Below are positions 4,921 through 58,689 of a stretch of 64,000 bases of DNA, piece by piece. The position numbers and the translations under genes were made by a program. Below the pieces are notes generated by a model. The model made no database searches. It had not been told where the DNA came from and was given only the letters and a program-made list of their open reading frames with translations. The stretch is from Armatimonadota bacterium (lineage in GTDB: Bacteria; Armatimonadota; UBA5829; DSUL01): the NCBI GenBank assembly GCA_020846715.1, contig JADLDK010000029.1, positions 1-64,000 on the forward strand, in the 5' to 3' direction. How positions within the stretch are numbered: position 1 is the first letter of the stretch; each line of letters starts with the position of its first letter.

Positions 4921-7900
4921 TCAGTCGACAAAGTGAAGATGCACTCTTACTCGCTGGCCAAACGGCCCGCGGTCGACGCAGAGCATCCGCAGTGCAAGCT
5001 CTGATTCGATAAGCCCTTCTATACTGAGCTCCTGTACCGCAGACTCCTTCAAAGCAGGCACGTCGGCGCTCAAAGGCTTGCTGCCACTGTTATGAGCGTT
5101 TGTGTATCCGACGACTACGCTGCCCGTCTCTTCCCCGGCCAGCCAGGTTGCCTCCCCAGAATTAGTCAACGTTACCCTGAACTTGACTGGTTGGCCCGTG
5201 CGTACGTCAACAACTCCGTGAAGACCGTCCTGCCAGGACCCGTCCGCGGCTTGGACCTGCACGTCACTGATCTCGGCATTCAGATACTTCGGCGGATTGT
5301 CCTTTGTCCACGGTGTCCCTCCTACGGCGATGGCAGGGCAACAGCGACTGTCCGTTCCAGTCCCCGCCGTTTTGCACACCAGCCGACGCCCTTTCTTGAG
5401 CCCCGCAAGATAGTTGTCCCGAGCCTCAGCCCAGACACCGGCATAACCACTCACAAATCTATCCCGGTCGATTACAATAGCCCCATCCGCCGCCGGGAGT
5501 GCCAGCGCTTTGTCCGCCTTGCCAGACCAGTGTTGAATCACCTGCCCCGCCGGGCGCGGTTGCCCGTCCTGGCGGACAATGCCGTAGTCACTGTTTTCAT
5601 CTACGCGCAGGCCAGACGGGAACCACCAGGCCGCCGATCCATTCGCGTGCGAGCGCGTGAAGAGGTCATAGCTGCGCTCAAAATGTAGCGCCTGCCGCGC
5701 CAGAGTGTCAGGGTCGTCCGTGTCCGGCCACACGCTCTGACCGTACTCAGCCCAGAAGACTGGCTTTCCTCCCGAGACAAAACGGGCGTACTCAGTCGTG
5801 AAGCCACCGGCGAGATAGTTGTCCAACTCGCCGACGATGCCGTATCCCTCCGGTGAAATGAAGTCTAGATGCGCAGCGCCACTTGCAAGGTCCAGTGGCA
5901 TCGCTGCCGCGATCGCCATCTGCCCAGTACCTCCATACCCGGTTCGCGCACCCAGCATGTGGTTTGGATCGAGTGAGCGAATCAGTCGCGTGATTTGTCC
6001 GTATCCGCGGCTAACCATGTCATCTACAAAGCGGCGGTACGCAGCTACCATCTTCTGCCAGGGCCCATCGGTGATAAGCTGGTCGTCTGTGGGAGAGGAT
6101 AGGACGCCCGCGGCAGGGCTTCCACTGGAAAAGCCCCAGTCGTTTTGTGCTCGCGCAAGGCTCCCGTACTGCTCCTCAACCCACTCAGTCCACTGCGAAT
6201 CAAAACGTCTGCGTTGGTCCTGTCGGCCGAGATTTGGCTCCCATGCGAGATCGTAAGCAAAAACCTGCGGATTATCTTTGAGCCCAGGGGTTGACACCAT
6301 TTTCTTGACCAGGTCCAGATTTGGAGACAGAGGATTGGCGCCCTCAAAGAAGATATTTACGAAAATGTGATGCAGCCGGCAGCGTTCGAGGAAGTCGACG
6401 AGCTGTGGACCGTCGCCCGGACGCAGATACTGGATGCTGACAACGTTGACGCGCAACGCTTGCAGAACACCCAGATCCCTTTCGATGATCTCGGGATCAT
6501 AGCGCCCTGGACCCAGCCACGAATGCTGAAACTCGCGGGGCTCGGTACCGGTGATGTAACGGGGAAAGTAGTTGACGCCATTTGCGAAGAATGGGCGTCC
6601 GCGATAAGTGAACTGTCCACCATGCGCCTGAACGAAGTCTTTTGGATTATCGCCTGACACAGACAGTGCTTGGCTGATGATGTCGATCGGGCGACCGCCC
6701 GACAGGAGTACAGTCTTGAGCCGCGCAGGCCCTGACGTCAGGGTGTAAGGCACATCTGAGCTCTGCCATTTGCCTTCAGAGTGTCCGGCAATACTGAGGT
6801 CACCAGAAGCCAGTGGCCGCTCCGTCCCCTCCTGCAACAACATGGTCTGAATGCTGAGATGGGACGGGGAAGAGTTGAAGGCGCGCACGCACGCACCAGG
6901 CGACAGGCCACCGCTCGCACCGAGCGCGAACTCACCAACTCCCGCCGCACGCAGGAGCGGACCGGAAAACATGCGCGCTGTCAAATGAGCCGTCAGTTGA
7001 GCTATCTGCCTTCGCTGCTCCGGGGTCAGTGACTCAACATTCACGCCGATCCCCGCCCAGATACCTCCTTCGTACTCATCCGAAAAGTGAAGGTAGTACC
7101 ACGCCGCTGTCCCGCGCCACTGGCCGTGGTCGTCATAGGCGTCTACAACAGGGATGAACCTGGCGTGCGGCAACCCACTCTCTTCATAGCCGACACCCCG
7201 GCTTCGCCAGATGGGCATCCAGCCATGGAGATCTCCCGTCAGGGTGAAGCTCTCCGGGATAACAGCCTGATCCGAGCGCGCGCTCATCCGGCGAACACCA
7301 TCCATCTTGTACAATTTGTAAGATGGGGACAGCGTCTGCAGTTTGGGCTGCTGGATGTTCTGCTCCGGCAGAGCGCTGGCTACGCCGATATTGCGCACCC
7401 ACCAGAGATGCTCTCCGGGTGGCAATACCCCGAAGTTCTCCGCCAATCCGATGCACAGCGTCTTCGCATTGCGCAGATTCAGACGATCACCCGGGCCACC
7501 GCGACCGACGGAGTCGTTGTCAGACCAGTAATTGAAATCCGATGCGCTTAGCACATAGCGCTTCCATTTCTCAGTCACTCTCAGATCGGCTATCCAGCGC
7601 GATCCGTCTGTCTCCCGCCATTCCACATAGAGGCGCGGCGTGTGTTGGTCGCCGCGCGCTTCCAGCACTGTCAGGTCGAAGTGAGTAGGAACCTGTCCTT
7701 CGATGACCGGCGACTGATAGGTGTTCCACCCGTCAAGACGGGAGACGAAGCCAGCAAGCGCTCCGTCACGGATACTGAGGCGCTCATCAAACTCCGGGTG
7801 GTTTGTCGATCGCGCCCAATTGTGTTCGTCGCCAGCCTTGAACTCGAAAAGCAGCTTGGCGGGGGGCTTTTCTGCAGTCTTTTCGGCAGCCTCCGCAAGG

Positions 7901-8277
7901 CTTATCCACTGCCCTTCAGAGTGTACAAGTAGCGTGTCAAACGCAGGAGCGCCAACAGCCGTCAGGCAGCCACCCTCTTTGAGGTAGTGTGTAAGAGGGT
8001 CAAGCGCCGAAGCGGGGAAGCGGCGCGCGTCCGGCAGGACGAGAACGTCTGGATTTCCGGCTATCGCCTCAGTAAGCCCTTCTCTCTCCACTGAGCTGAC
8101 CGCAATTCCAGCCTCCTCCAGATGGGATCGAACACTGGCCGACCAGGCAGCGTCCGCGCTCTCCAGAAGGACTGCCCTGGCTCCACTCGCAGAGTTCACC
8201 GCCACAAGACACAGTAGACTAATGATTAGGAAGCGAAACAAAAACAGGGTGTCCAACTCTTTGCGCCCTCCCGTCAA
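4921..8277 (-). CDS. Large secreted clan GH-A glycoside hydrolase (GH42/GH5-like)
   Basis: Exported protein of 1118 residues. Residues 1-33 look like a signal peptide. Residues 35-115 resemble a Rossmann-like glutamine-amidotransferase fold of the type seen beside GH42 cores. Residues 145-300 look like a beta-sandwich carbohydrate-binding module. The (beta/alpha)8 region starts near 552 (GGQFTYRGRPFFANGVNY). Probable catalytic residues are Glu680 in DLAWEP (acid/base) and Glu844 in FWAEYG (nucleophile). Between them, at 692-717, is a segment of the form WxEWVEEQYGSLxRAQNDWG, typical of GH42-like enzymes. The C terminus (1000-1118) is another beta-sandwich. It probably attacks plant or microbial beta-glycans outside the cytoplasm; the exact substrate and family number cannot be fixed here. 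Confidence 0.8.
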   Translation of the reverse strand: MTGGRKELDTLFLFRFLIISLLCLVAVNSASGARAVLLESADAAWSASVRSHLEEAGIAVSSVEREGLTEAIAGNPDVLVLPDARRFPASALDPLTHYLKEGGCLTAVGAPAFDTLLVHSEGQWISLAEAAEKTAEKPPAKLLFEFKAGDEHNWARSTNHPEFDERLSIRDGALAGFVSRLDGWNTYQSPVIEGQVPTHFDLTVLEARGDQHTPRLYVEWRETDGSRWIADLRVTEKWKRYVLSASDFNYWSDNDSVGRGGPGDRLNLRNAKTLCIGLAENFGVLPPGEHLWWVRNIGVASALPEQNIQQPKLQTLSPSYKLYKMDGVRRMSARSDQAVIPESFTLTGDLHGWMPIWRSRGVGYEESGLPHARFIPVVDAYDDHGQWRGTAAWYYLHFSDEYEGGIWAGIGVNVESLTPEQRRQIAQLTAHLTARMFSGPLLRAAGVGEFALGASGGLSPGACVRAFNSSPSHLSIQTMLLQEGTERPLASGDLSIAGHSEGKWQSSDVPYTLTSGPARLKTVLLSGGRPIDIISQALSVSGDNPKDFVQAHGGQFTYRGRPFFANGVNYFPRYITGTEPREFQHSWLGPGRYDPEIIERDLGVLQALRVNVVSIQYLRPGDGPQLVDFLERCRLHHIFVNIFFEGANPLSPNLDLVKKMVSTPGLKDNPQVFAYDLAWEPNLGRQDQRRRFDSQWTEWVEEQYGSLARAQNDWGFSSGSPAAGVLSSPTDDQLITDGPWQKMVAAYRRFVDDMVSRGYGQITRLIRSLDPNHMLGARTGYGGTGQMAIAAAMPLDLASGAAHLDFISPEGYGIVGELDNYLAGGFTTEYARFVSGGKPVFWAEYGQSVWPDTDDPDTLARQALHFERSYDLFTRSHANGSAAWWFPSGLRVDENSDYGIVRQDGQPRPAGQVIQHWSGKADKALALPAADGAIVIDRDRFVSGYAGVWAEARDNYLAGLKKGRRLVCKTAGTGTDSRCCPAIAVGGTPWTKDNPPKYLNAEISDVQVQAADGSWQDGLHGVVDVRTGQPVKFRVTLTNSGEATWLAGEETGSVVVGYTNAHNSGSKPLSADVPALKESAVQELSIEGLIESELALRMLCVDRGPFGQRVRVHLHFVD

Positions 8278-47492: not shown

Positions 47493-48407
47493 TTGGGGCT
47501 TCCAAACTTCTTTTGGGCTAATGTCTGGAGCGGGGGTTGGGTTTCTGTCCTGACCACCCTTCTGGACATTGCGGTTATTGCCTTTGCGCTTTACAAGCTG
47601 ATTATGCTCGTGAAGGGCACGCGGGCATGGCAGATTCTGTGGGGGCTGGGCATTTTCTTTGCGCTGATTTTCATCAGTGAAAAGCTGCAGTTGCACACGC
47701 TCAACTGGGTTCTGCAGAAAATCGTCCCTCTGGGCCCTGTGGCTATCGTCATCCTCTTTTACCCTGAGCTACGCCATGCGCTGGAAGAGATGGGCCGTAT
47801 CGGCTTCTGGGGACGTGGATTCAGCTTTCTGGGCAGGGAAGACCTGGCGGTGGTGATTGAGGAAGTTGTCAAATGCGCCACGCGCCTGTCCAGGGGAAAA
47901 ATCGGGGCGCTTATCGTCATTGAGCGCGAGACGGGACTGGACAACATTGTACAGACTGGCACCCGTCTGGATGCAATAGTATCCTCAGAGCTGCTTTCCA
48001 CCATTTTCTATCCAGGGAGTCCTCTTCACGACGGCGCGGCTGTGCTGCGCTCGAACCGCATTATCGCCGTCAGTTGCACCTTGCCGCTTTCCGACAGCCC
48101 GCACGTGTCCGCAATGATTCACACCCGGCACAAGGCCGCTATGGGAGTCACGGAGCAGTCAGACGCCGTAGTAGTGGTTGTGAGTGAAGAAACCGGGACG
48201 ATTTCTCTGGCGCTGGAGGGGCGGCTGGATAGAGGGCTTGACGGTGACTCCCTGCGGGAGCGCCTACAGGAGCTGCTGTCGCCTCCTGGATCCGACAATA
48301 CCGGGCCGAGCCGCATTTTGCGCTGGAAAAGCTTCCCAGGCAACAATATCGAGAAGAGCGGCAAGGAGCAAGCCAGCGCCTCCTCAGCCCAGTCAAAAGC
48401 GCCGTAA
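47493..48407 (+). CDS. cdaA: Diadenylate cyclase CdaA (DacA)
   Basis: Membrane enzyme of 304 residues that makes the second messenger cyclic di-AMP from two ATP. Three N-terminal helices (LLDIAVIAFALYKLIMLV; GLGIFFALIFI; VAIVILFY) are followed by the DAC domain with HDGAAVLRSNRI (DGA at 180-182) and the second motif TRHKAAMG, where the canonical RHR reads RHK. The C-terminal tail is Ser/Lys-rich. Start is TTG, because AGGA lies 8 nt before it and no ATG is in frame nearby. The order cdaA-cdaR-glmM is the one conserved in Firmicutes, tying cyclic di-AMP to cell wall precursor supply. Confidence 0.93.
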   Translation: MGLPNFFWANVWSGGWVSVLTTLLDIAVIAFALYKLIMLVKGTRAWQILWGLGIFFALIFISEKLQLHTLNWVLQKIVPLGPVAIVILFYPELRHALEEMGRIGFWGRGFSFLGREDLAVVIEEVVKCATRLSRGKIGALIVIERETGLDNIVQTGTRLDAIVSSELLSTIFYPGSPLHDGAAVLRSNRIIAVSCTLPLSDSPHVSAMIHTRHKAAMGVTEQSDAVVVVVSEETGTISLALEGRLDRGLDGDSLRERLQELLSPPGSDNTGPSRILRWKSFPGNNIEKSGKEQASASSAQSKAP

Positions 48408-48431
48408 GAAAGCTGTGGTGAAACCCTTCTA

Positions 48432-49361
48432 GTGTTCCGTCAGAATGCTGTCTACAAGATTGCAGCCATCGTCATAGCTATCGCTCTCACCGTCTATGTG
48501 TACGGAGAGCGTAACCCACCGACTATCCGCACTTTGCAGATTCCGCTGGAGACCAGAAAGCTTCCTGCAAATGTCGGCGTCAAGTCAGTCCCGGAAAACG
48601 TTCGCGTGCAGGTGGATGGCCCGAAAGACTCGGTCATGCGTGTGACGGCAGGGATGATCCGGGCCTATGTTTCTCTGGACGGACTCAGCCCCGGAGACCA
48701 CAGGTTGCTTGTGCGCCTCGATCCCGCCAACAGCCTCCCGCCTGACATTCACGCTTCCGCCGCAGATGCCACGGTTCCGGTAAGCTTGCAGTCGCTGGAG
48801 CGTCAGACACGGCCTGTTGAGCCGGTTTTTCTAAGGCCGCCACCTCCCGGGTTTACCTACGGCTTACCGGCCGTCAAACCTTCCGTGGCTTATGTAGGCG
48901 GCCCGACTCAAGACGTGGAGCGCGTTTCCCAACTTCAGGTTGTGGTAGATGCTGTGCCCACGCCGAATAAGACGATAAGTGGTAGCTTCCCGATCCGGGC
49001 TGTGGATTCCAATTCACTTGAAGTGGATGATGTGACCGTCAAACCGGGGACCGCGACAGTGCAGGTACAAATTCAGGGCATGCCTGCACAAAAAGAGATA
49101 TTTGTAAGTCCCAACGTGAAGGGCGTTCCGGCGCCTGGTTTTCAGGTCAAGAGTATCAGTGTCGTACCTCAGTCTGTCACGGTCACCGGCGGCCCTGACA
49201 GTATCGGCAAGCTCAACTTCGTCACGACGGATGAAGTGGACATCTCGGGAGCAACAACCGATGTAGTGAGAAGTGTGCAGATGCTGCTGCCGGATGGCGT
49301 CACGGCGCAGGGATCGCGCAGAGTGCGAGTTGATGTTAATGTGGAGGCACGCCCGCAGTAG
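48432..49361 (+). CDS. cdaR: CdaR-like YbbR domain protein
   Basis: Product of 309 residues with one N-terminal membrane helix (KIAAIVIAIALTVYVY) and three or so YbbR repeats outside (NVRVQVDGPKDSV; PSVAYVGGPTQDVERV; KGVPAPGFQVKSISVVPQSVTVTGG). CdaR binds and modulates CdaA. It sits between cdaA (24 nt) and glmM, in the conserved order. Start is GTG 48432. Confidence 0.9.
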   Translation: MFRQNAVYKIAAIVIAIALTVYVYGERNPPTIRTLQIPLETRKLPANVGVKSVPENVRVQVDGPKDSVMRVTAGMIRAYVSLDGLSPGDHRLLVRLDPANSLPPDIHASAADATVPVSLQSLERQTRPVEPVFLRPPPPGFTYGLPAVKPSVAYVGGPTQDVERVSQLQVVVDAVPTPNKTISGSFPIRAVDSNSLEVDDVTVKPGTATVQVQIQGMPAQKEIFVSPNVKGVPAPGFQVKSISVVPQSVTVTGGPDSIGKLNFVTTDEVDISGATTDVVRSVQMLLPDGVTAQGSRRVRVDVNVEARPQ

Positions 49362-49387
49362 TGGGCCAGACAACAGACAGGCAGGCG

Positions 49388-50737
49388 ATGCGTAACTATT
49401 TTGGCACAGATGGAATCCGCGGCGTTGCGAACAGAGAGTTGACGGCGGATCTGGCATTGAGAATTGGCGCTGCGGCAGCCAAGGTCCTCCTGAACCGCCC
49501 TCACGGCGTCAGCGTACTCATTGGGCGGGACCCGCGTATTTCGGGTGACATGCTGGAGAGCGCGCTCGCGGCGGGGTTCGCGTCGCGAGGAGCGGATGTC
49601 ATACTCGTTGGCGTCATTCCAACGCCGGGCGTGGCGGTGCTGGTGCGCGAAGCCGATGTTGACGTCGGCTGTGTCATCTCTGCCTCCCACAACCCTGTAG
49701 AATACAACGGGATCAAGTTTTTCGGGCAAGACGGGGAAAAGCTCGCAGATGAGACAGAGAGCGAAATCGAGTCTCACCTGAATGACCCGGTGAATCAGGC
49801 ACTGCCGGTTGGGGAAAACATCGGTCGCTTTCTGCGCCAGCCTCAGCGAGTCGAGCGCTATGTCTACGCCGTCAAGCAGACAGCCCGCCGCAGACTGAAT
49901 GGCCTGAAGCTGGTGATGGATGGGGCGAACGGCGCCGCCTTCGATCTTGCGCCGCGAATATTTCGCGAACTCGGAGCAGAGGTTGTCACCATCGGGTGCG
50001 ATCCGGACGGCGCGAACATCAACGCGGGGCTTGGTTCTACGCATCCGGAGCGCATGCTTGAGATGGTGCAGCGGGAGGGCGCCGACGCCGGACTGGCCTT
50101 CGACGGAGACGCCGACCGCGTGCTCATGGCTTCTGAGGACGGAAAACTCGTGGATGGTGACAAGATTATGGCCATCTGCGGGATAGACATGGACCGCCGG
50201 GGTGTCTTGCCCGGCCGGCGCGTCATCGCTACAGTGATGAGCAATGTGGGACTGGAAGTGGCGCTCCAGCGGCACGGAATTCTGCTGGACAGGGTGGAGG
50301 AAGTCGGTGACCGCTACGTCGCTGAAAGGATGAGAGCTACAGGCGCGCGCATTGGTGGAGAAAAATCCGGCCACATTATACTGTCGGAATACACGACCAC
50401 TGGAGATGGAATGGTGACGGCGCTCCAGGTGCTGGGAGCTATGCAGGACGCTGACAGGCGCTTGTCTGAGCTGGCAAACGAGGTAGAGGAATATCCACAG
50501 GTTCTGGACGGTGTGCGGGTGCGAGACAAGAGCCGCTGGAAAGAGAATCCGGCCATCAGCAGCGCCATTGATGAAGCGTCAAACGCGCTGCGGGGGCGTG
50601 GCCGCCTTCACGTCAGAGCCTCTGGAACCGAACCTCTCATACGAGTGATGGCGGAGGGACCGGTCGAAGCGGAGCTGAAAGAGCTGGTTGGAGGAGTCTG
50701 CTCGGCGATCCGCGAGACCATCGGCGCAGAGAATTAG
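49388..50737 (+). CDS. glmM: Phosphoglucosamine mutase
   Basis: Product of 449 residues that converts glucosamine-6-phosphate to glucosamine-1-phosphate for peptidoglycan and lipopolysaccharide precursors. The start MRNYFGTDGIRG is the family N terminus. The active-site serine is in VISASHNPVEYNG, the metal loop is FDGDADRVL, the sugar loop is GGEKSGHI, and the phosphate loop is RASGTEPLIRVM. An upstream GTG at 49361 overlaps the cdaR stop and would add nine residues; I prefer ATG 49388. In other bacteria GlmM forms a complex with CdaA and limits cyclic di-AMP synthesis. Confidence 0.95.
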   Translation: MRNYFGTDGIRGVANRELTADLALRIGAAAAKVLLNRPHGVSVLIGRDPRISGDMLESALAAGFASRGADVILVGVIPTPGVAVLVREADVDVGCVISASHNPVEYNGIKFFGQDGEKLADETESEIESHLNDPVNQALPVGENIGRFLRQPQRVERYVYAVKQTARRRLNGLKLVMDGANGAAFDLAPRIFRELGAEVVTIGCDPDGANINAGLGSTHPERMLEMVQREGADAGLAFDGDADRVLMASEDGKLVDGDKIMAICGIDMDRRGVLPGRRVIATVMSNVGLEVALQRHGILLDRVEEVGDRYVAERMRATGARIGGEKSGHIILSEYTTTGDGMVTALQVLGAMQDADRRLSELANEVEEYPQVLDGVRVRDKSRWKENPAISSAIDEASNALRGRGRLHVRASGTEPLIRVMAEGPVEAELKELVGGVCSAIRETIGAEN

Positions 50738-52248: not shown

Positions 52249-54243
52249 TTACTTGAAACTCGGCAGAATAATGCCCCGCATGATGATGTTCTGACAGAAA
52301 ACGAAGATCAACAGAGTCGGGATGGCTGCTATAGCCAGCGCCGCCATCACCACATACTGCGGTGACAGAAGCTGGAGCTCATACAGCCACACCATAATCG
52401 TCCACATCTTCGGATCCTGGCACACCAGGAACGCAAACATGAAATTGCCGTAAGCTACGGTGAAGCTGGACAGCGCGATGACCGCCAGGACAGGCTTTGA
52501 GAGCGGCACAGTGATCTGCCAGAACATCCGCCCTTCGCTTGCCCCGTCTATAATCCCCGCCTCGTAGAGCTCTCTGGGCAGACTGTCGAAGAATCCTTTC
52601 AGCAGGAAGATGCTGTACCCACTCGCCACTCCGGGCAGAATCAGCGCTGCAAAGGTGTTGAGCAAATTCAGATTCTTCAACAGTAGAAACGATGGGATCA
52701 TCGCGACTTCCGCTGGGAACGCCATGGTCGCCAGGAGAAACAGAAGCACCCGGTGTCCGTAGCGCAGGTTGTAGCGGCTGAGTGAGTAAGCGCACAGCGG
52801 ATTGACAATCAGGTGCGTGGTAATGGCCAGAAATACATAGAAAAAGGTATTGAACACGGCCCGGCCGTGGCGTCCAATATAGTCCCAGACCATCTGAAAG
52901 TTCGCCAGAGCGAAATACTTGCGCAAGGCAGCGGAATTGTTGAGCGTGTAGCTCCAGTCCTCAAGCTGAAAAGGCGGCACGGCCTCCGCTATTGAGTTGT
53001 AGTTGAGGCCGTACGCCCTGTTCAGCGCTTTCACAGACGAAAACTTCTTTTGAAGCCATGCCCTGTAGCGGTTTTCCGATCCGTCCGGATGGAGCGAACC
53101 GATGGGCGCCGGACCCGCAATGAAGTCCATCCAGTCTGTTAGAATCTGCCCTTCACTCGGTAGCTCACCTGGGAGCGGCACGGTGTCAAATGAGGAATAC
53201 GGCCGCTGGTGAGCGATTTGAAGCTGCTGAAGGCCAGTGTAACGGGTCTTGAGAAACGCTCTCCAGGCTGGGGCAGCGGAGGCGTCTACGCGCATGAAGC
53301 GAAACGGAAGCTGTGTCCGTACGAACTTCTCCCAATCTGCGCGCTCAGCGGGCGTAGCCGGCATGGCTTCGGGCAGGTGAATCTCACTGAAGTAGCCGTA
53401 CTGTGTGCCCCACGCCTTGTTCAGCGCGTGGATGTCGTCCTCATACTGGTCCTGACTCAGAAACTCTTGAAAGATCGGATCTACGCGCACGACCAGTTTG
53501 AAGCGCTGCGGAGCCTGCGCCTTGAACACCTTCCACTCCCGCATTTTGCGTGTGTCATCCAGGTTCCATTCCCGCTTTGTCTCCCGCTCCATCGGCGTCA
53601 GAACACTGGCGAAGGAGGTATTTTCTTCTCCGTAAGCTGCATTCAACCGATTTATCGTCCCATAGCGCTTCTCCAGCCATGCTCGGTACAAATCCAGCAG
53701 GCGGCTTGGCGCGCTGGCGGGAGCGGCAGGGCGCCCGGCGTATCCGGCGACAACAAAGCGTCCGGGCAGAGCGGCGCTGAAGCGTCGCCAGTCAGCGAGT
53801 TGTCTGCGCGCTTCAGGTGAGTGCGGGTTTACCGGGGGGAGTCGTAACGGATTCAGTCCACGCGTTTGTCCCTGAAAATAGTTGACGGAGCCGTTCCACA
53901 TCTGTACAACTGCCTTTGCAGCGGAGTTTTCTGGCCACACCTGAGGGGGTACGACGGCCTGCAGGTTGGCCCAGTCTGTTCCGTAACGCTCATTGATGCG
54001 GACCATATCACCGCTGTAGCGAATCTCCACCTCTTTTGCGAACAGTGCAGTGACGTCGTACAGATAGCGGGGGACAGGACGGTAATCGGAGTAGTCGGCC
54101 TCACTGGAGACGCTGGCGCCAATCATCAGGAGGAACGGATACACCATCGTCACCGCGCCAAGGGTGAGGATGACGTACATCAGCGCGATACCCAGCCTGA
54201 CCTTCCACGACCGCCTCCCAACAGCAGGGATGATGCCCGACAT
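52249..54243 (-). CDS. MalG-type sugar ABC permease with a 390-residue repeat insertion
   Basis: Product of 664 residues, against about 280 for an ordinary MalG-like permease. Residues 17-42 are the first membrane helix. Residues 445-664 hold the remaining helices and the EAA loop that docks the ATPase (ELYEAGIIDGASEGRMFW at 558-575). Between them, residues 50-440 are a hydrophilic insertion, expected outside the cytoplasm. It contains five copies of a motif of the form (Y/W)xxFLxxRYxxLxxLNxAYGTxYxSF. The copies lie near 67-99, 185-216, 257-293, 326-360 and 393-424, the later ones at intervals of about 70 residues and each preceded by a WxxF segment. The motif resembles a segment of GH42-like hydrolases. 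The gene lies 6 nt after its fused partner. Confidence 0.88.
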   Translation of the reverse strand: MSGIIPAVGRRSWKVRLGIALMYVILTLGAVTMVYPFLLMIGASVSSEADYSDYRPVPRYLYDVTALFAKEVEIRYSGDMVRINERYGTDWANLQAVVPPQVWPENSAAKAVVQMWNGSVNYFQGQTRGLNPLRLPPVNPHSPEARRQLADWRRFSAALPGRFVVAGYAGRPAAPASAPSRLLDLYRAWLEKRYGTINRLNAAYGEENTSFASVLTPMERETKREWNLDDTRKMREWKVFKAQAPQRFKLVVRVDPIFQEFLSQDQYEDDIHALNKAWGTQYGYFSEIHLPEAMPATPAERADWEKFVRTQLPFRFMRVDASAAPAWRAFLKTRYTGLQQLQIAHQRPYSSFDTVPLPGELPSEGQILTDWMDFIAGPAPIGSLHPDGSENRYRAWLQKKFSSVKALNRAYGLNYNSIAEAVPPFQLEDWSYTLNNSAALRKYFALANFQMVWDYIGRHGRAVFNTFFYVFLAITTHLIVNPLCAYSLSRYNLRYGHRVLLFLLATMAFPAEVAMIPSFLLLKNLNLLNTFAALILPGVASGYSIFLLKGFFDSLPRELYEAGIIDGASEGRMFWQITVPLSKPVLAVIALSSFTVAYGNFMFAFLVCQDPKMWTIMVWLYELQLLSPQYVVMAALAIAAIPTLLIFVFCQNIIMRGIILPSFK
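52972..54045 (-). repeat. Five repeats encoding GH42-like WLxxRYGxLxxLNxAYG motifs
   Basis: Protein-level repeats in the loop of the MalG-type permease. Clear cores are AWLEKRYGTINRLNAAYG, QDQYEDDIHALNKAWGTQYG, AFLKTRYTGLQQLQIAH and AWLQKKFSSVKALNRAYG. The first copy (EVEIRYSGDMVRINERYGTD) is the most divergent. Confidence 0.75.
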
Positions 54244-54249
54244 CTGTCT

Positions 54250-56748
54250 CTATTCTCCCTGCGCCGCCGAGAAGCGGATGTCTCGCAGGATACGCAGTTG
54301 GTACATTGTGAAACCGATGAGCATACTTCCCATGATCCAGGCCGCCGCCGTGGCGTACCCAAACTTCAGATACATGAATGCGTTGAACCAGACCTCCAGC
54401 CCGATAGTGTGCGTAGCGTAGAGCGGGCCGCCGCCAGTCATAACGAAAATGTTCTCCATAGCCTTGAACGACCCGATGAAAGCACCCACCAGGTTGATGA
54501 TGATAAGCGGTTTCAGAGTTGGCAGGGTGACCCGGAAAATCTTGGTGAAAACCCCCGCGCCGTCCACGTCCGCCGCCTCATACATGTCTTCTGGAATACC
54601 CTTCAGAGCCGCCAGGTAGATGATGCTTCCCGGCCCGGCGCCAGCCCAGACAGCCGGAAGAATGACCCACGCCATCACAGCCAGCGGATGCTGCGAGTCA
54701 TTGAGAAACTGGTAAGGCTCCTTCATGCCGCCAAACGGGGCGAGCATAAACGACAGCAGCGAATTGAACAGGCCCTGAAATGTCGGGTCGTAAAACCACT
54801 TCCACAAAAAGAGAATGATAATGCCACTTGTGACCGCTGGCAGATAGTACAGCGTACGGAACAGCATCTTGCCCCGTGGAATTTCGTTGAGAAGAAGCGC
54901 GAGAAAGATCGGAATGAAAAAGCCCATCCCGAGAGTCATCGCCGTGTAGAGAAAGCTGTTTTTGAGTCCGATCCAGAACTCCTGACGCCCGAAGGCTTCG
55001 ATGAAGTTGTCCAGACCCACCCACCGGCTGACTCCGATGACCATATAATCCTGGAAGGCCATGATCATTCCGCGCACCAGCGGGTAATAAGCCCAGACGG
55101 CGATGGACAGAACCGCCGGCAACATGAAAAACCAGGCAATCGCATGCGTTTTCCACCCGCCCCGCGCGGCGATCTGGGAGTCCAGCGCCCCCTCAGAGTG
55201 GGCCGCAGCCAGTGTGCGCACCTGCCGCACTCCGACAAGGGCCACCGTAGTCAGCAGAAAAGCCACCACAACCCAGGCGATCGTCCGCTTTCGGCGCATT
55301 TCCTCAGGGGGGGTGTAGTTCAGGAGCTTCGCGTCGATTTTGGAGGCGGCATCCGCTAGAATGCGCCTTGCGGACATGTTCGGAAACGCCTCAGCGCGCT
55401 CCAGAGGCTCGTCCAGCAGCGCATAAATCATCTGGCAGTTTTCACCGTGAGGCTCGGGGCGACCCCACTTGAAAGCGTTTTCGTTAGCCTCCACCCACTG
55501 CTTCGGAACTTCCTTCAGATATTCGCTGTAGCCGTACTTCTTGAGAAGTGGCGGGTTTACGAACTTGGCCATCCCTGCTTCGACAAAGGCCTTCGTGCGC
55601 AGCCTCTCCGCTTCTTCAGAGCGCTGAAACTTAATGAACTCCCACGCCATGTCGCGCACGCGTTTATCCTTGATCAGCGCATTGATCCCCCACATGCTCG
55701 CGTTGATCTCGTTGGCGTGTCCGGCCGGGCCTGCAGGCAGCGCGCTGATGCCTATCAGGCTTGGATTCTGGGTGGAGTTGCCATTGGTGACTGTTTCCGA
55801 GAGATACCCCATCCACATCCCGACTTTGCCACGGTCAATGTAGGACACGGGATCGGTGGTGCGGATTGAGACGCCCTTGACGGGTTTGCCATCCCGCTCC
55901 CAGAGCCCGATGCGCATCTTGCGGTAAAAGTTGAGCGCTTCGACGCCGGCGGGTGTGTCAAAGGCCGCGCGCCACTGGCCCGAGGCGTCTCTCGCGACAA
56001 CATCCGCCCCAGCCTGCCACAAAAAGTCTGTCCAGTGATAGGAAGTCCCGTGAGGCGTTCCGTACCAGAGAAATCCAAACTGTCCTTTGGAGGGGATTGT
56101 GAGCTTCTGGCAGTATTCGTAGAACTCTTCCCACGTGCGCGGGCCGCGGTTCGGGTTGATGCCTGCCTCCTTGAACAGGTCTTTGCGATAATACAACGCC
56201 ATCACCCACTGCTGAAACGGCATGCTGTAGATCTTGCCATTCAGGGTGATGACCTCCATCACCTTGGAGTTGATCCCCTCCAGGACCTTAGGATCGCGCG
56301 CGACGTACTCGTTCAGAGGGTAGAGAAAGCCCTGTTTGACATAGCTTTCAAGCTGGCGGAAGTTCACGTAGAAGACGTCCGGCGCTGTGCCACCAGCCAT
56401 GGACATCAGGAATCCGGATTCGGCCGCCTGCCCCTGAAGTTGAATCCCGCTGGCCGGCGCCACTTCCACATTCGGGTGAAGCTGGAGAAAGCGTTCGTAC
56501 ACCGCTCTTCTGGCCCTGTTCCATGGGTCGGAAGCGTCCTTCTGCGGAATAGCTGCCCAGGTCGTCGTGCCCGTGCTCAGACGCAGCATTACCTTTGGTT
56601 CGCCGAGCGCCCGGGCGGCGCTACAGATGAGGACAGAAAAGCAAGCCAGAAGCCCCACCCAGACGCGCAAAGCTTTGCGCGCCGCGGCGCTGCGCAAGTG
56701 CAGAGTGTTGACTCGAGTTGTCGGCATTCTGGTGAATAGACCCGGCAC
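54250..56748 (-). CDS. Solute-binding protein fused to a MalF-type sugar ABC permease
   Basis: Product of 832 residues combining two normally separate parts. After a hydrophobic signal or anchor (about 28-45), residues 50-475 form a family 1 extracellular sugar-binding protein (VYERFLQLHPNVEV; MAGGTAPDVFYVNF; GKIYSMPFQQWVMALYYRKDLF; TWEEFYEYCQKL). A membrane helix at 488-506 joins it to the MalF-type permease at 535-825, with the MLPAVLSIAVWAYYPLVRGM start and the EAA loop GIPEDMYEAADVDGAG at 717-732. The binding protein is thus tethered to the transporter. Its MalG-type partner is 6 nt downstream. No ATPase gene accompanies them, so a shared MsmK-like ATPase elsewhere is expected. Start GTG 56748 or ATG 56727. 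Confidence 0.9.
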   Translation of the reverse strand: MPGLFTRMPTTRVNTLHLRSAAARKALRVWVGLLACFSVLICSAARALGEPKVMLRLSTGTTTWAAIPQKDASDPWNRARRAVYERFLQLHPNVEVAPASGIQLQGQAAESGFLMSMAGGTAPDVFYVNFRQLESYVKQGFLYPLNEYVARDPKVLEGINSKVMEVITLNGKIYSMPFQQWVMALYYRKDLFKEAGINPNRGPRTWEEFYEYCQKLTIPSKGQFGFLWYGTPHGTSYHWTDFLWQAGADVVARDASGQWRAAFDTPAGVEALNFYRKMRIGLWERDGKPVKGVSIRTTDPVSYIDRGKVGMWMGYLSETVTNGNSTQNPSLIGISALPAGPAGHANEINASMWGINALIKDKRVRDMAWEFIKFQRSEEAERLRTKAFVEAGMAKFVNPPLLKKYGYSEYLKEVPKQWVEANENAFKWGRPEPHGENCQMIYALLDEPLERAEAFPNMSARRILADAASKIDAKLLNYTPPEEMRRKRTIAWVVVAFLLTTVALVGVRQVRTLAAAHSEGALDSQIAARGGWKTHAIAWFFMLPAVLSIAVWAYYPLVRGMIMAFQDYMVIGVSRWVGLDNFIEAFGRQEFWIGLKNSFLYTAMTLGMGFFIPIFLALLLNEIPRGKMLFRTLYYLPAVTSGIIILFLWKWFYDPTFQGLFNSLLSFMLAPFGGMKEPYQFLNDSQHPLAVMAWVILPAVWAGAGPGSIIYLAALKGIPEDMYEAADVDGAGVFTKIFRVTLPTLKPLIIINLVGAFIGSFKAMENIFVMTGGGPLYATHTIGLEVWFNAFMYLKFGYATAAAWIMGSMLIGFTMYQLRILRDIRFSAAQGE

Positions 56749-56974: not shown

Positions 56975-57997
56975 TCATGGGCCGACAAGCTGGCGAACGA
57001 GCAGGTAGCTGAGAGCTCCCAACAACGCGCAGACCGGCAGGGTCATCAGCCAGGCTGCGACAATCTGGCGGATAATCCCCCAGCGCACGCCCTTCAGGTT
57101 CTTCGCGGCGCCCACGCCCATTACAGCCGAGGAAATCACGTGCGTTGTGGAGACAGGGGCATGCACGTGGGTAGCCAGCATAATCACTGTCGCCGCAGAG
57201 GTCTCCGCCGCGAAACCATGCACGGGCTGGAGTCCGATCACCTTGCGCCCAACGGTCTTGATGATACGCCACCCGCCGCCAGCCGTTCCAAGAGCCATCG
57301 CGGCGGCGCACGATAGCTTCACCCACAAAGGAACGCTAAAGACCGGCGAAGGAGCGGTGCTGAGACTCATCAGCGCAAGTGTGATGACGCCCATCGATTT
57401 CTGAGCGTCGTTTGCCCCATGTGAAAATGCCATCACCGCAGCGGACACAGCCTGCACTTTCAAAAACCACTTGTTCAGACGGCTTGGCGGTTTGTTGCAG
57501 AACAGCCAGGCGATGATCACCATAGAGAAGACGCCAATGAGGAAGCCGAGTATGGGCGAGAGGATCAGCCACGTGATGATATGCCCGAGTCCCGCGTAGC
57601 TCCAGTTGAGCGCGTGAACGCCGTGCGAAGCGGCGACTGCCGCGCCCGCCAGCGCGCCTATGAGCGCGTGACTGGAGCTGCTGGGCAGGCCCCGGTGCCA
57701 CGTGACCAGATTCCACGCGATAGCGCCAATTAGCGCAGACAGCACCAGCAGTTGGTAATCGTGGTACTTGGAGGTATCAATAATGCCAGTGCCCATTGCC
57801 TTCGCGACACCAGTCCACAGAATGGCTCCAACAAAGTTCGCAATGGCTGCCATGATGATGGCGGTGCGCACACTCAGCGCCTTCGTCAGAACACTGGTGG
57901 CAATAGCATTGGCTGTGTCGTGAAAACCATTAATGAAGTCGAAAATCAGAGCCAGGACGACGACGCAGCCGATGACGATGAGTGCGGGATCAGGCAT
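56975..57997 (-). CDS. pit: PiT family inorganic phosphate transporter
   Basis: Membrane protein of 340 residues that imports phosphate coupled to protons or sodium. The two inverted family repeats are visible: FDFINGFHDTANAIATSVLTKAL near the N terminus and AFSHGANDAQKSMGVITLAL in the second half, each with its Asn-Asp/His signature. Ten or so hydrophobic segments occur. The DUF47 gene lies 65 nt upstream in the same direction, the standard pairing for PiT systems. Confidence 0.93.
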   Translation of the reverse strand: MPDPALIVIGCVVVLALIFDFINGFHDTANAIATSVLTKALSVRTAIIMAAIANFVGAILWTGVAKAMGTGIIDTSKYHDYQLLVLSALIGAIAWNLVTWHRGLPSSSSHALIGALAGAAVAASHGVHALNWSYAGLGHIITWLILSPILGFLIGVFSMVIIAWLFCNKPPSRLNKWFLKVQAVSAAVMAFSHGANDAQKSMGVITLALMSLSTAPSPVFSVPLWVKLSCAAAMALGTAGGGWRIIKTVGRKVIGLQPVHGFAAETSAATVIMLATHVHAPVSTTHVISSAVMGVGAAKNLKGVRWGIIRQIVAAWLMTLPVCALLGALSYLLVRQLVGP

Positions 57998-58062
57998 ACA
58001 GGGCGGCTTTCAAAGTCTTCGAACACCTTAGTTCGGCCTGTCTCAATCGCCTCGTTGAGAAC

Positions 58063-58689
58063 TCAGGCGTTCTTGACAACAATACCTTCCAGAATGTGCG
58101 CGACATGCTCGCATTTGTCGATCGCCTCTTCGAAATGGTCGTAAATCTCCCGCCATTTCATGGCTTCCAGAGGCTCCATAGCGCCGCTGAATATCTGCTT
58201 CAGAGCTTTGCGATTGATGCGGTCGCCTTCGTTCTCGAAGTCGTTCACACGCACGCAGGGGTCAAGAACTTTGCGTGTGTCGCGCAACTCACTCAGGTGT
58301 GAGACGGCTTTTTGCACCTCTTGTGTGGCCTGGAGAATCACATCGGCCATCTCTATTGCTTCAGATGTGGGCTCGGTGACAGCGTACAACACAAGGCGGT
58401 CACAGGCGGATTCGATGAAGTCCGTAATATCATCCAATCCGTCTGCCAGCGCGTGGATGTCTTCCCGATCGAGAGGGGTGATGAACGAGTCGTTCAGGCG
58501 CTTGAAGATGTCGTGAAGGATAAAGTCGCCCTCGTGCTCCGCTTCAACAGCTCGCGCGGACATTTCCGGGGCTTTGTTGAAGTCCTTCACCATCTCGTTG
58601 AGCACTTGAGCCGCCTTAACAGCGTTAGCCGCCGCACGGTCGAACAATTCGAAGAATTGCTCTTGACGCGGCATCAAGTGGAGTTTCAT
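58063..58689 (-). CDS. PhoU-like DUF47 protein, PiT accessory
   Basis: Cytoplasmic helical protein of 208 residues with PhoU-like three-helix bundles. Typical text is EHEGDFILHDIFKRLNDSFITPLDREDIHALADGLDDITDFIE in the first half and VNDFENEGDRINRKALKQIF in the second; both contain the Glu/Asp metal-cluster motifs of PhoU relatives. DUF47 proteins are encoded with PiT transporters and regulate them, as the position here suggests. On the minus strand TTGACG (58771-58766) and TATACT (58745-58740) lie upstream, but with a 20-nt spacer. Confidence 0.92.
   Translation of the reverse strand: MKLHLMPRQEQFFELFDRAAANAVKAAQVLNEMVKDFNKAPEMSARAVEAEHEGDFILHDIFKRLNDSFITPLDREDIHALADGLDDITDFIESACDRLVLYAVTEPTSEAIEMADVILQATQEVQKAVSHLSELRDTRKVLDPCVRVNDFENEGDRINRKALKQIFSGAMEPLEAMKWREIYDHFEEAIDKCEHVAHILEGIVVKNA

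Follow-up and report, generated by a model that had tools for sequence, protein, structure and literature searches.

The analysis of a 64,000-nucleotide stretch from an Armatimonadota genome assembly (GCA_020846715.1, contig JADLDK010000029.1; hereafter the window) identified a CUT1 permease of the MalG/UgpE type that carries an insert of tandem repeats, predicted to fold as a helical solenoid, between its first and second transmembrane (TM) helices. The repeats are five copies of a helical hairpin resembling one found in glycoside hydrolase family 42 (GH42), and the gene adjoins one that encodes a solute-binding protein (SBP) fused to the partner permease. We propose, with a probability of about one half, that the solenoid is a rigid periplasmic scaffold arm that stands beside the tethered SBP on the importer and restrains or docks it. 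None of the three components (permease family, SBP fusion, hairpin) is new in itself; their combination with a solenoid of variable length is, as far as our searches show, apparently undescribed. No description of such an insert-bearing importer was found in the open-access (PMC) full-text literature, where the remark of the preliminary description of this DNA that no described importer is built in this way therefore holds. Few transporters are as well understood as the type I ABC importers; a repeat solenoid on their outer face is apparently undescribed.

The permease, its fused partner and its ATPase

The permease is encoded by an open reading frame of 664 amino acids on the minus strand (52249..54243). 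It contains a BPD_transp_1 domain (PF00528; Pfam, 2.3e-14) at residues 490–657, and its best solved relatives are AlgM2 (1.5e-16) and MalG (3.5e-13). A Foldseek search with the full AlphaFold2 model returned AlgM2, SugB and MalG, and the matches listed covered the permease part only. The permease core (residues 445–664; 52252..52911), delimited by Pfam, the homologue alignment and Foldseek, contains a conserved EAA-type loop that begins at residue 561 (EAGIIDGASE). These results bear out the MalG-type permease of the preliminary description, whose coordinates, 52924-54096, correspond to residues 50–440 of the reading frame. Plus-strand open reading frames (53209-53820 and 53866-55359) overlap the same stretch; the minus strand was taken as coding because the minus-strand MalG protein is conserved. 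In keeping with a CUT1 importer, a partner permease and a family-1 SBP share the operon with MalG (54250-56748). A promoter and terminator scan of the operon gave no signal exceeding the shuffled expectation.

The partner gene lies upstream of MalG on the same strand (832 amino acids; 54250..56748, minus), and its stop codon is six bases before the MalG start codon. According to the reading frame, Pfam and hydropathy, its product comprises an SBP_bac_1 domain (residues 46–480; 55309..56613, minus; 1.4e-41), one extra TM helix (residues 489–507; 55228..55284, minus; hydropathy) that tethers the SBP, and a MalF/UgpA-type permease. The SBP and the permease thus share one polypeptide, as had been described before. 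Relatives of the SBP include trehalose/maltose-binding and arabino-oligosaccharide-binding proteins (1eu8, 3.3e-20; 6rjy, 7.6e-19), and we infer a sugar-type substrate from the SBP and permease families. The MalF part of many homologues (for example L045, L071 and L090) has approximately 61 additional residues, hydrophobic in character and perhaps forming two further membrane helices, after the position of residue 671 of the window partner, which is without them.

Across relatives, the insert-bearing MalG adjoins an SBP-MalF fusion at 56 of the 66 testable loci (named loci with enough upstream sequence) by automatic calling and at one more as a single-ORF case, giving at least 57/66. Some of the non-adjacent partner calls are probably overlapping antisense reading frames picked by the automatic calling. 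At two Firestonebacteria loci (L041 and L042), an SBP-MalF gene was looked for beside the permease and not found. Both domains were present in 62/63 clustered partners. In a Hydrogenedentota bin (L081:7250-11815, plus strand), the SBP, MalF and insert-bearing MalG are in one frame of 1522 amino acids, with the first residues of MalG missing at the junction; this three-part fusion may be genuine or may result from a deletion in the assembly. Other SBP-MalF fusions in the same phylum as the window (L205, L206, L207 and L209; 28–31% identical) adjoin MalGs that have no insert, and the SBP can therefore be tethered where there is no arm.

No ATPase gene was found beside the SBP-MalF/MalG pair. The genome contains a single OB_MalK gene, outside the operon (L212, C5:74540-74704), compared with 14 MalG-type matches, so that a MalK-type ATPase is available at a distance. 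Shared ATPases are an established arrangement for CUT1 importers (PMC7658222), and the importer is presumably energised by this single distant MalK. The OB_MalK gene adjoins a gene for an alpha-L-rhamnosidase.

Repeats and predicted fold of the insert

Hydropathy analysis placed the first TM helix at residues 24–42 (residues 13–44 in the AlphaFold2 model; 54112..54207, minus) and the next from residue 462, with none between them. The distance from TM1 to the core is 380 amino acids, compared with 15–98 in seven MalGs from the same phylum that have no insert. The insert, at residues ~62–444 (52912..54060, minus; bounded by this distance and by the full-length and insert-only AlphaFold2 models), therefore lies between TM1 and TM2, as the preliminary description had placed it. 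Pfam reported Glyco_hydro_42 in the insert (1.1e-15) in three stretches, the best of which aligned residues 257–312 with positions 153–213 of the 376-position profile.

An iterated hairpin profile located hairpins at about residues 69–102, 187–219, 260–293, 328–360 and 394–426, and the repeats were delimited by this profile, per-copy hidden Markov models (HMMs) and AlphaFold2. Repeat 1 (residues 64–104; 53932..54054, minus) is the most diverged copy and consists of the hairpin only in the AlphaFold2 model. It is followed by a low-confidence, lineage-specific linker (residues 105–142; 53818..53931, minus; pLDDT <50 at 120–131), which is missing from most homologues in the alignment. Unit 2 (residues 143–222; 53578..53817, minus) comprises a helix, a 3-residue strand and a two-helix hairpin, and is followed by unit 3 (residues 231–297; 53353..53553, minus), which holds the best Pfam GH42 stretch, unit 4 (residues 298–363; 53155..53352, minus) and unit 5 (residues 366–430; 52954..53148, minus). 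In 110 sequences, the hairpin profile detected five copies in 54 and four in 34, at recurrent positions.

Each per-copy HMM was made from one repeat column of 64 homologues, including the window MalG, which limited circularity, and was searched against the window insert and 2000 shuffled versions of it. The five profiles matched other copies at 7.8–33 bits, compared with shuffled maxima of 3.0–8.3 bits. Two pairs fell short: R4 scored R1 at just 2.3 bits, and R2 did not match R4. Chance repeats were thus ruled out, and the earlier claim of five repeats stands.

AlphaFold2 models with 64 sequences were confident for the full-length permease (pLDDT 88.3, pTM 0.84), and so was the model of the insert alone (pLDDT 90.3, pTM 0.87), which was a solenoid of ~67-amino-acid units. 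In a typical unit, a helix (DWxxF) leads through a strand of three residues into a hairpin of two helices (WLxxRYG / IxxLNxAYGT). A disordered insert, which the preliminary description had named as evidence against its reading, was ruled out by the two models. A Foldseek comparison of the insert-only model with the PDB gave zero matches at E ≤ 0.001, and accordingly no global match to a solved alpha-solenoid repeat fold at that threshold. The weaker matches were mainly chains of GH42, GH50, GH14 and GH167, and the tighter of these were local, covering 33–46 residues.

When the unit profile was compared with the PDB, it matched GH42 (1kwg, 1.7e-8, residues 156–196), a GH14-type amylase (3.9e-8) and a GH50-type agarase (1.1e-5), in each case over the hairpin half only. 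The insert therefore shares with the GH42 beta-galactosidases (PF02449) a helical hairpin of ~40 amino acids (WLxxRYGTIxxLNxAxGT). In GH42 there is one copy, inside a catalytic TIM barrel and with an FWSQR-type segment of five additional mid-motif residues (GTAFWSQRYRSF versus GTxYxSF), whereas in MalG the hairpin is in tandem, without the segment and without the barrel. The same hairpin is present in GH14 beta-amylases, GH50 agarases and GH167 by profile and local fold match; these differ from the insert as GH42 does, but the GH14 amylase 3voc is also without the extra segment. Since the unit profile matches several hydrolase barrels, the repeat contains a structural hairpin common to them, and the novelty lies in repeating it in tandem away from any barrel. 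The motif resemblance noted earlier is upheld by the 1kwg match and by a Pfam Glyco_hydro_42 label in 61/64 homologues. The statement that a segment from the GH42 core is repeated was correct for one ~40-residue hairpin; this is not the core in the catalytic sense, and GH14, GH50 and GH167 have the hairpin too. A fragment of a TIM barrel, smaller than a fold, may have been reused as the repeat unit. As the PDB match covers only the hairpin half, an origin of the complete unit in a single beta-alpha unit of the GH42 barrel, though attractive, is left as conjecture.

In the 64 homologues, the best-conserved insert residues are mostly repeat-core W, F, Y, N and P. Unit-specific near-invariant residues are also present (R309 in 63/64, R224 in 59 and K70 in 59), and these are candidates for an interface. 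Conservation is lower in the insert than in the core, with mean relative entropies of 1.6 and 3.25 bits, respectively. Since Pfam already tags the insert-bearing permeases, databases show the two domains together even if the combination is undescribed; as the tag is a beta-galactosidase family label, automatic annotation may overstate the number of hydrolases in these phyla.

Distribution and proposed role of the insert

Relatives were scanned in one genome per species. The best 80 loci of a longer list were mainly from the Armatimonadota, Firestonebacteria, Kiritimatiellota, Lentisphaerota, Verrucomicrobiota, Planctomycetota and Hydrogenedentota, mostly diderm groups, with a few labelled otherwise. 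In a census of three phyla with the insert profile (E ≤ 1e-20), the insert was present in about half of the sampled genomes of the Armatimonadota (112/205), in nearly a third of those of the Verrucomicrobiota (89/289; the phylum of a Lentisphaerae locus) and in 10/294 of those of the Planctomycetota (the phylum of a Planctomycetes locus). Within phyla its occurrence is patchy. The search in other phyla that the preliminary description had proposed thus finds the insertion beyond the Armatimonadota.

In a core-only tree, the insert-bearing MalGs form one clade against the seven insert-less ones (SH-aLRT 100), on long outgroup branches. Later shortenings took place within the insert-bearing clade: short inserts (220–246 amino acids, ~3 units) form one nested clade, and the mid-size inserts need four changes. 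Inserts of 481–569 amino acids, with 6–8 units detected, occur in some Verrucomicrobiota and Planctomycetota genomes, and the step from 353 to 493 amino acids (+140) amounts to about two units. The unit number therefore ranges from ~3 to ~8 across relatives, with five in the window MalG. The partners tested upstream of long-insert forms have the usual SBP-MalF layout, and there was no sign that insert length tracks SBP size. Such natural variants on a near-constant partner are a ready series with which to probe the extra-membrane part of the importer.

According to the scaffold reading, the first periplasmic loop (P1) of MalG would have been enlarged into the solenoid of ~67-residue units, and the arm would stand beside the tethered SBP domain and restrain or dock it. 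The docking would be of the kind seen in the association of the E. coli MalF-P2 loop with MalE, and MalE is reported to contact both MalF and MalG in MalFGK2 (PMC3150292). The periplasmic side of the insert is predicted from MalG topology, and the scaffold role is likewise a proposal. The P1 position of the insert, the confident solenoid and the adjacent SBP-MalF at no fewer than 57 of the 66 loci argue for this role, as do the conserved repeat-core residues and the reported contacts of MalE with both permeases. The roughly three-fold variation in unit number on a partner of near-constant layout argues against it, as do the insert-less MalGs beside other SBP-MalF fusions and the two Firestonebacteria loci without an adjacent SBP-MalF. 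Because unit number is labile, a tight, fixed-shape cradle is disfavoured, and the arm could instead dock to another partner or guide glycans. More tentatively, a helical element shared with glycoside hydrolase barrels may have been captured into the P1 loop and amplified into a new solenoid, with unit number tuning the grip on the SBP or on a long glycan; no ABC importer is known to have a periplasmic arm of adjustable length.

The preliminary description had suggested that the loop might hold or feed long oligosaccharides. A solenoid that binds these and passes them to the tethered SBP, with a unit number that fits glycan length, would agree with the presence of the hairpin in carbohydrate enzymes, with the oligosaccharide binders among the SBP relatives, and with the clustering of a paralogous pair with GH42-like, CBM9 and oligogalacturonate-lyase-like genes. 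The repeats are, however, without the FWSQR-type segment and the remaining GH42 barrel, conservation in the insert is highest mainly at repeat-core positions, glycan-degradation neighbours are not common to most loci, and unit number varies while the layout of the SBP partner is constant; the suggestion thus fares poorly, and we regard it as unlikely. Slightly less likely still is an arm that contacts a periplasmic or outer-membrane partner (a transporter, peptidoglycan or a hydrolase), its units following the distance to be bridged. Insert length does vary partly by whole units while partner layout is constant, the lineages among the best 80 loci are mostly diderm, and a GH42M-bearing protein is encoded directly downstream of the paralogous pair, but the neighbourhood has no conserved third gene and no partner was found.

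Repeats that grew and shrank without a dedicated function would account for the lower conservation of the insert, its labile unit number and its patchy presence. This neutral explanation is improbable given that the insert is kept, with intact frames, in more than 200 sampled genomes of several phyla, and that the repeat-core residues and the near-invariant R309, R224 and K70 are conserved. That the permease is joined to a glycosidase domain, whether active or degenerate, as the Pfam label in 61/64 homologues might imply, is highly improbable. The best stretch matches only the one short profile segment (61/376 GH42 positions), and does so repeatedly; the remaining barrel is absent, as is the five-residue segment, and the model is a solenoid with no global match to a complete (beta/alpha)8 GH42 barrel. 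The insert was on these grounds rejected as an enzyme and probably has no catalytic machinery.

Compared with known systems, the permease shares its family and core fold with E. coli MalG (MalFGK2-MalE), AlgM2 (an alginate importer) and SugB (LpqY-SugABC), which likewise operate with a partner permease, a family-1 binding protein and a MalK-type ATPase. Those chains are without the repeat insert, at 264–305 amino acids in their entirety. Their binding proteins are separate polypeptides, and the P2 loop of E. coli MalF is not a tandem repeat. Like the insert in its predicted location, MalF-P2 is an extensive periplasmic part of a CUT1 permease, and it is associated with the binding protein (PMC3150292). 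The enlargement there is in MalF, whereas here it is in MalG and is repetitive. In the MalE-MalF fusion of Bdellovibrio, the binding domain is tethered to MalF as it is here, and the SBP-MalF fusion alone is not new; no MalG solenoid is known in importers of that type.

Gene neighbourhood and the paralogous copy

No conserved third gene was found among the 66 operon-like neighbours scanned, and the assignment of a substrate from the gene neighbourhood was dropped on that ground. The genome contains a second copy of the importer (L210, C41:66000-85500), with an SBP-MalF and an insert-bearing MalG on one strand. Directly downstream of this pair, on the same strand, is the gene for the GH42M-bearing protein (987 amino acids), and the pair is beside genes for a CBM9 and GH42-like protein of 1401 amino acids and an oligogalacturonate-lyase-like protein. 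These neighbours support carbohydrate use for the paralogous copy only.

Elsewhere in the window, a protein of 1118 amino acids (4921-8277, minus strand) has a weak, below-cut-off GH42 match (0.0025) to barrel positions 123–298, and three adjacent genes (47493-50737, plus strand) resemble CdaA, YbbR and GlmM by eye. Upstream of the importer is a PHO4-family phosphate transporter (Pfam; 56975-58689, minus strand), and the small gene that adjoins it resembles the usual PhoU-like partner.
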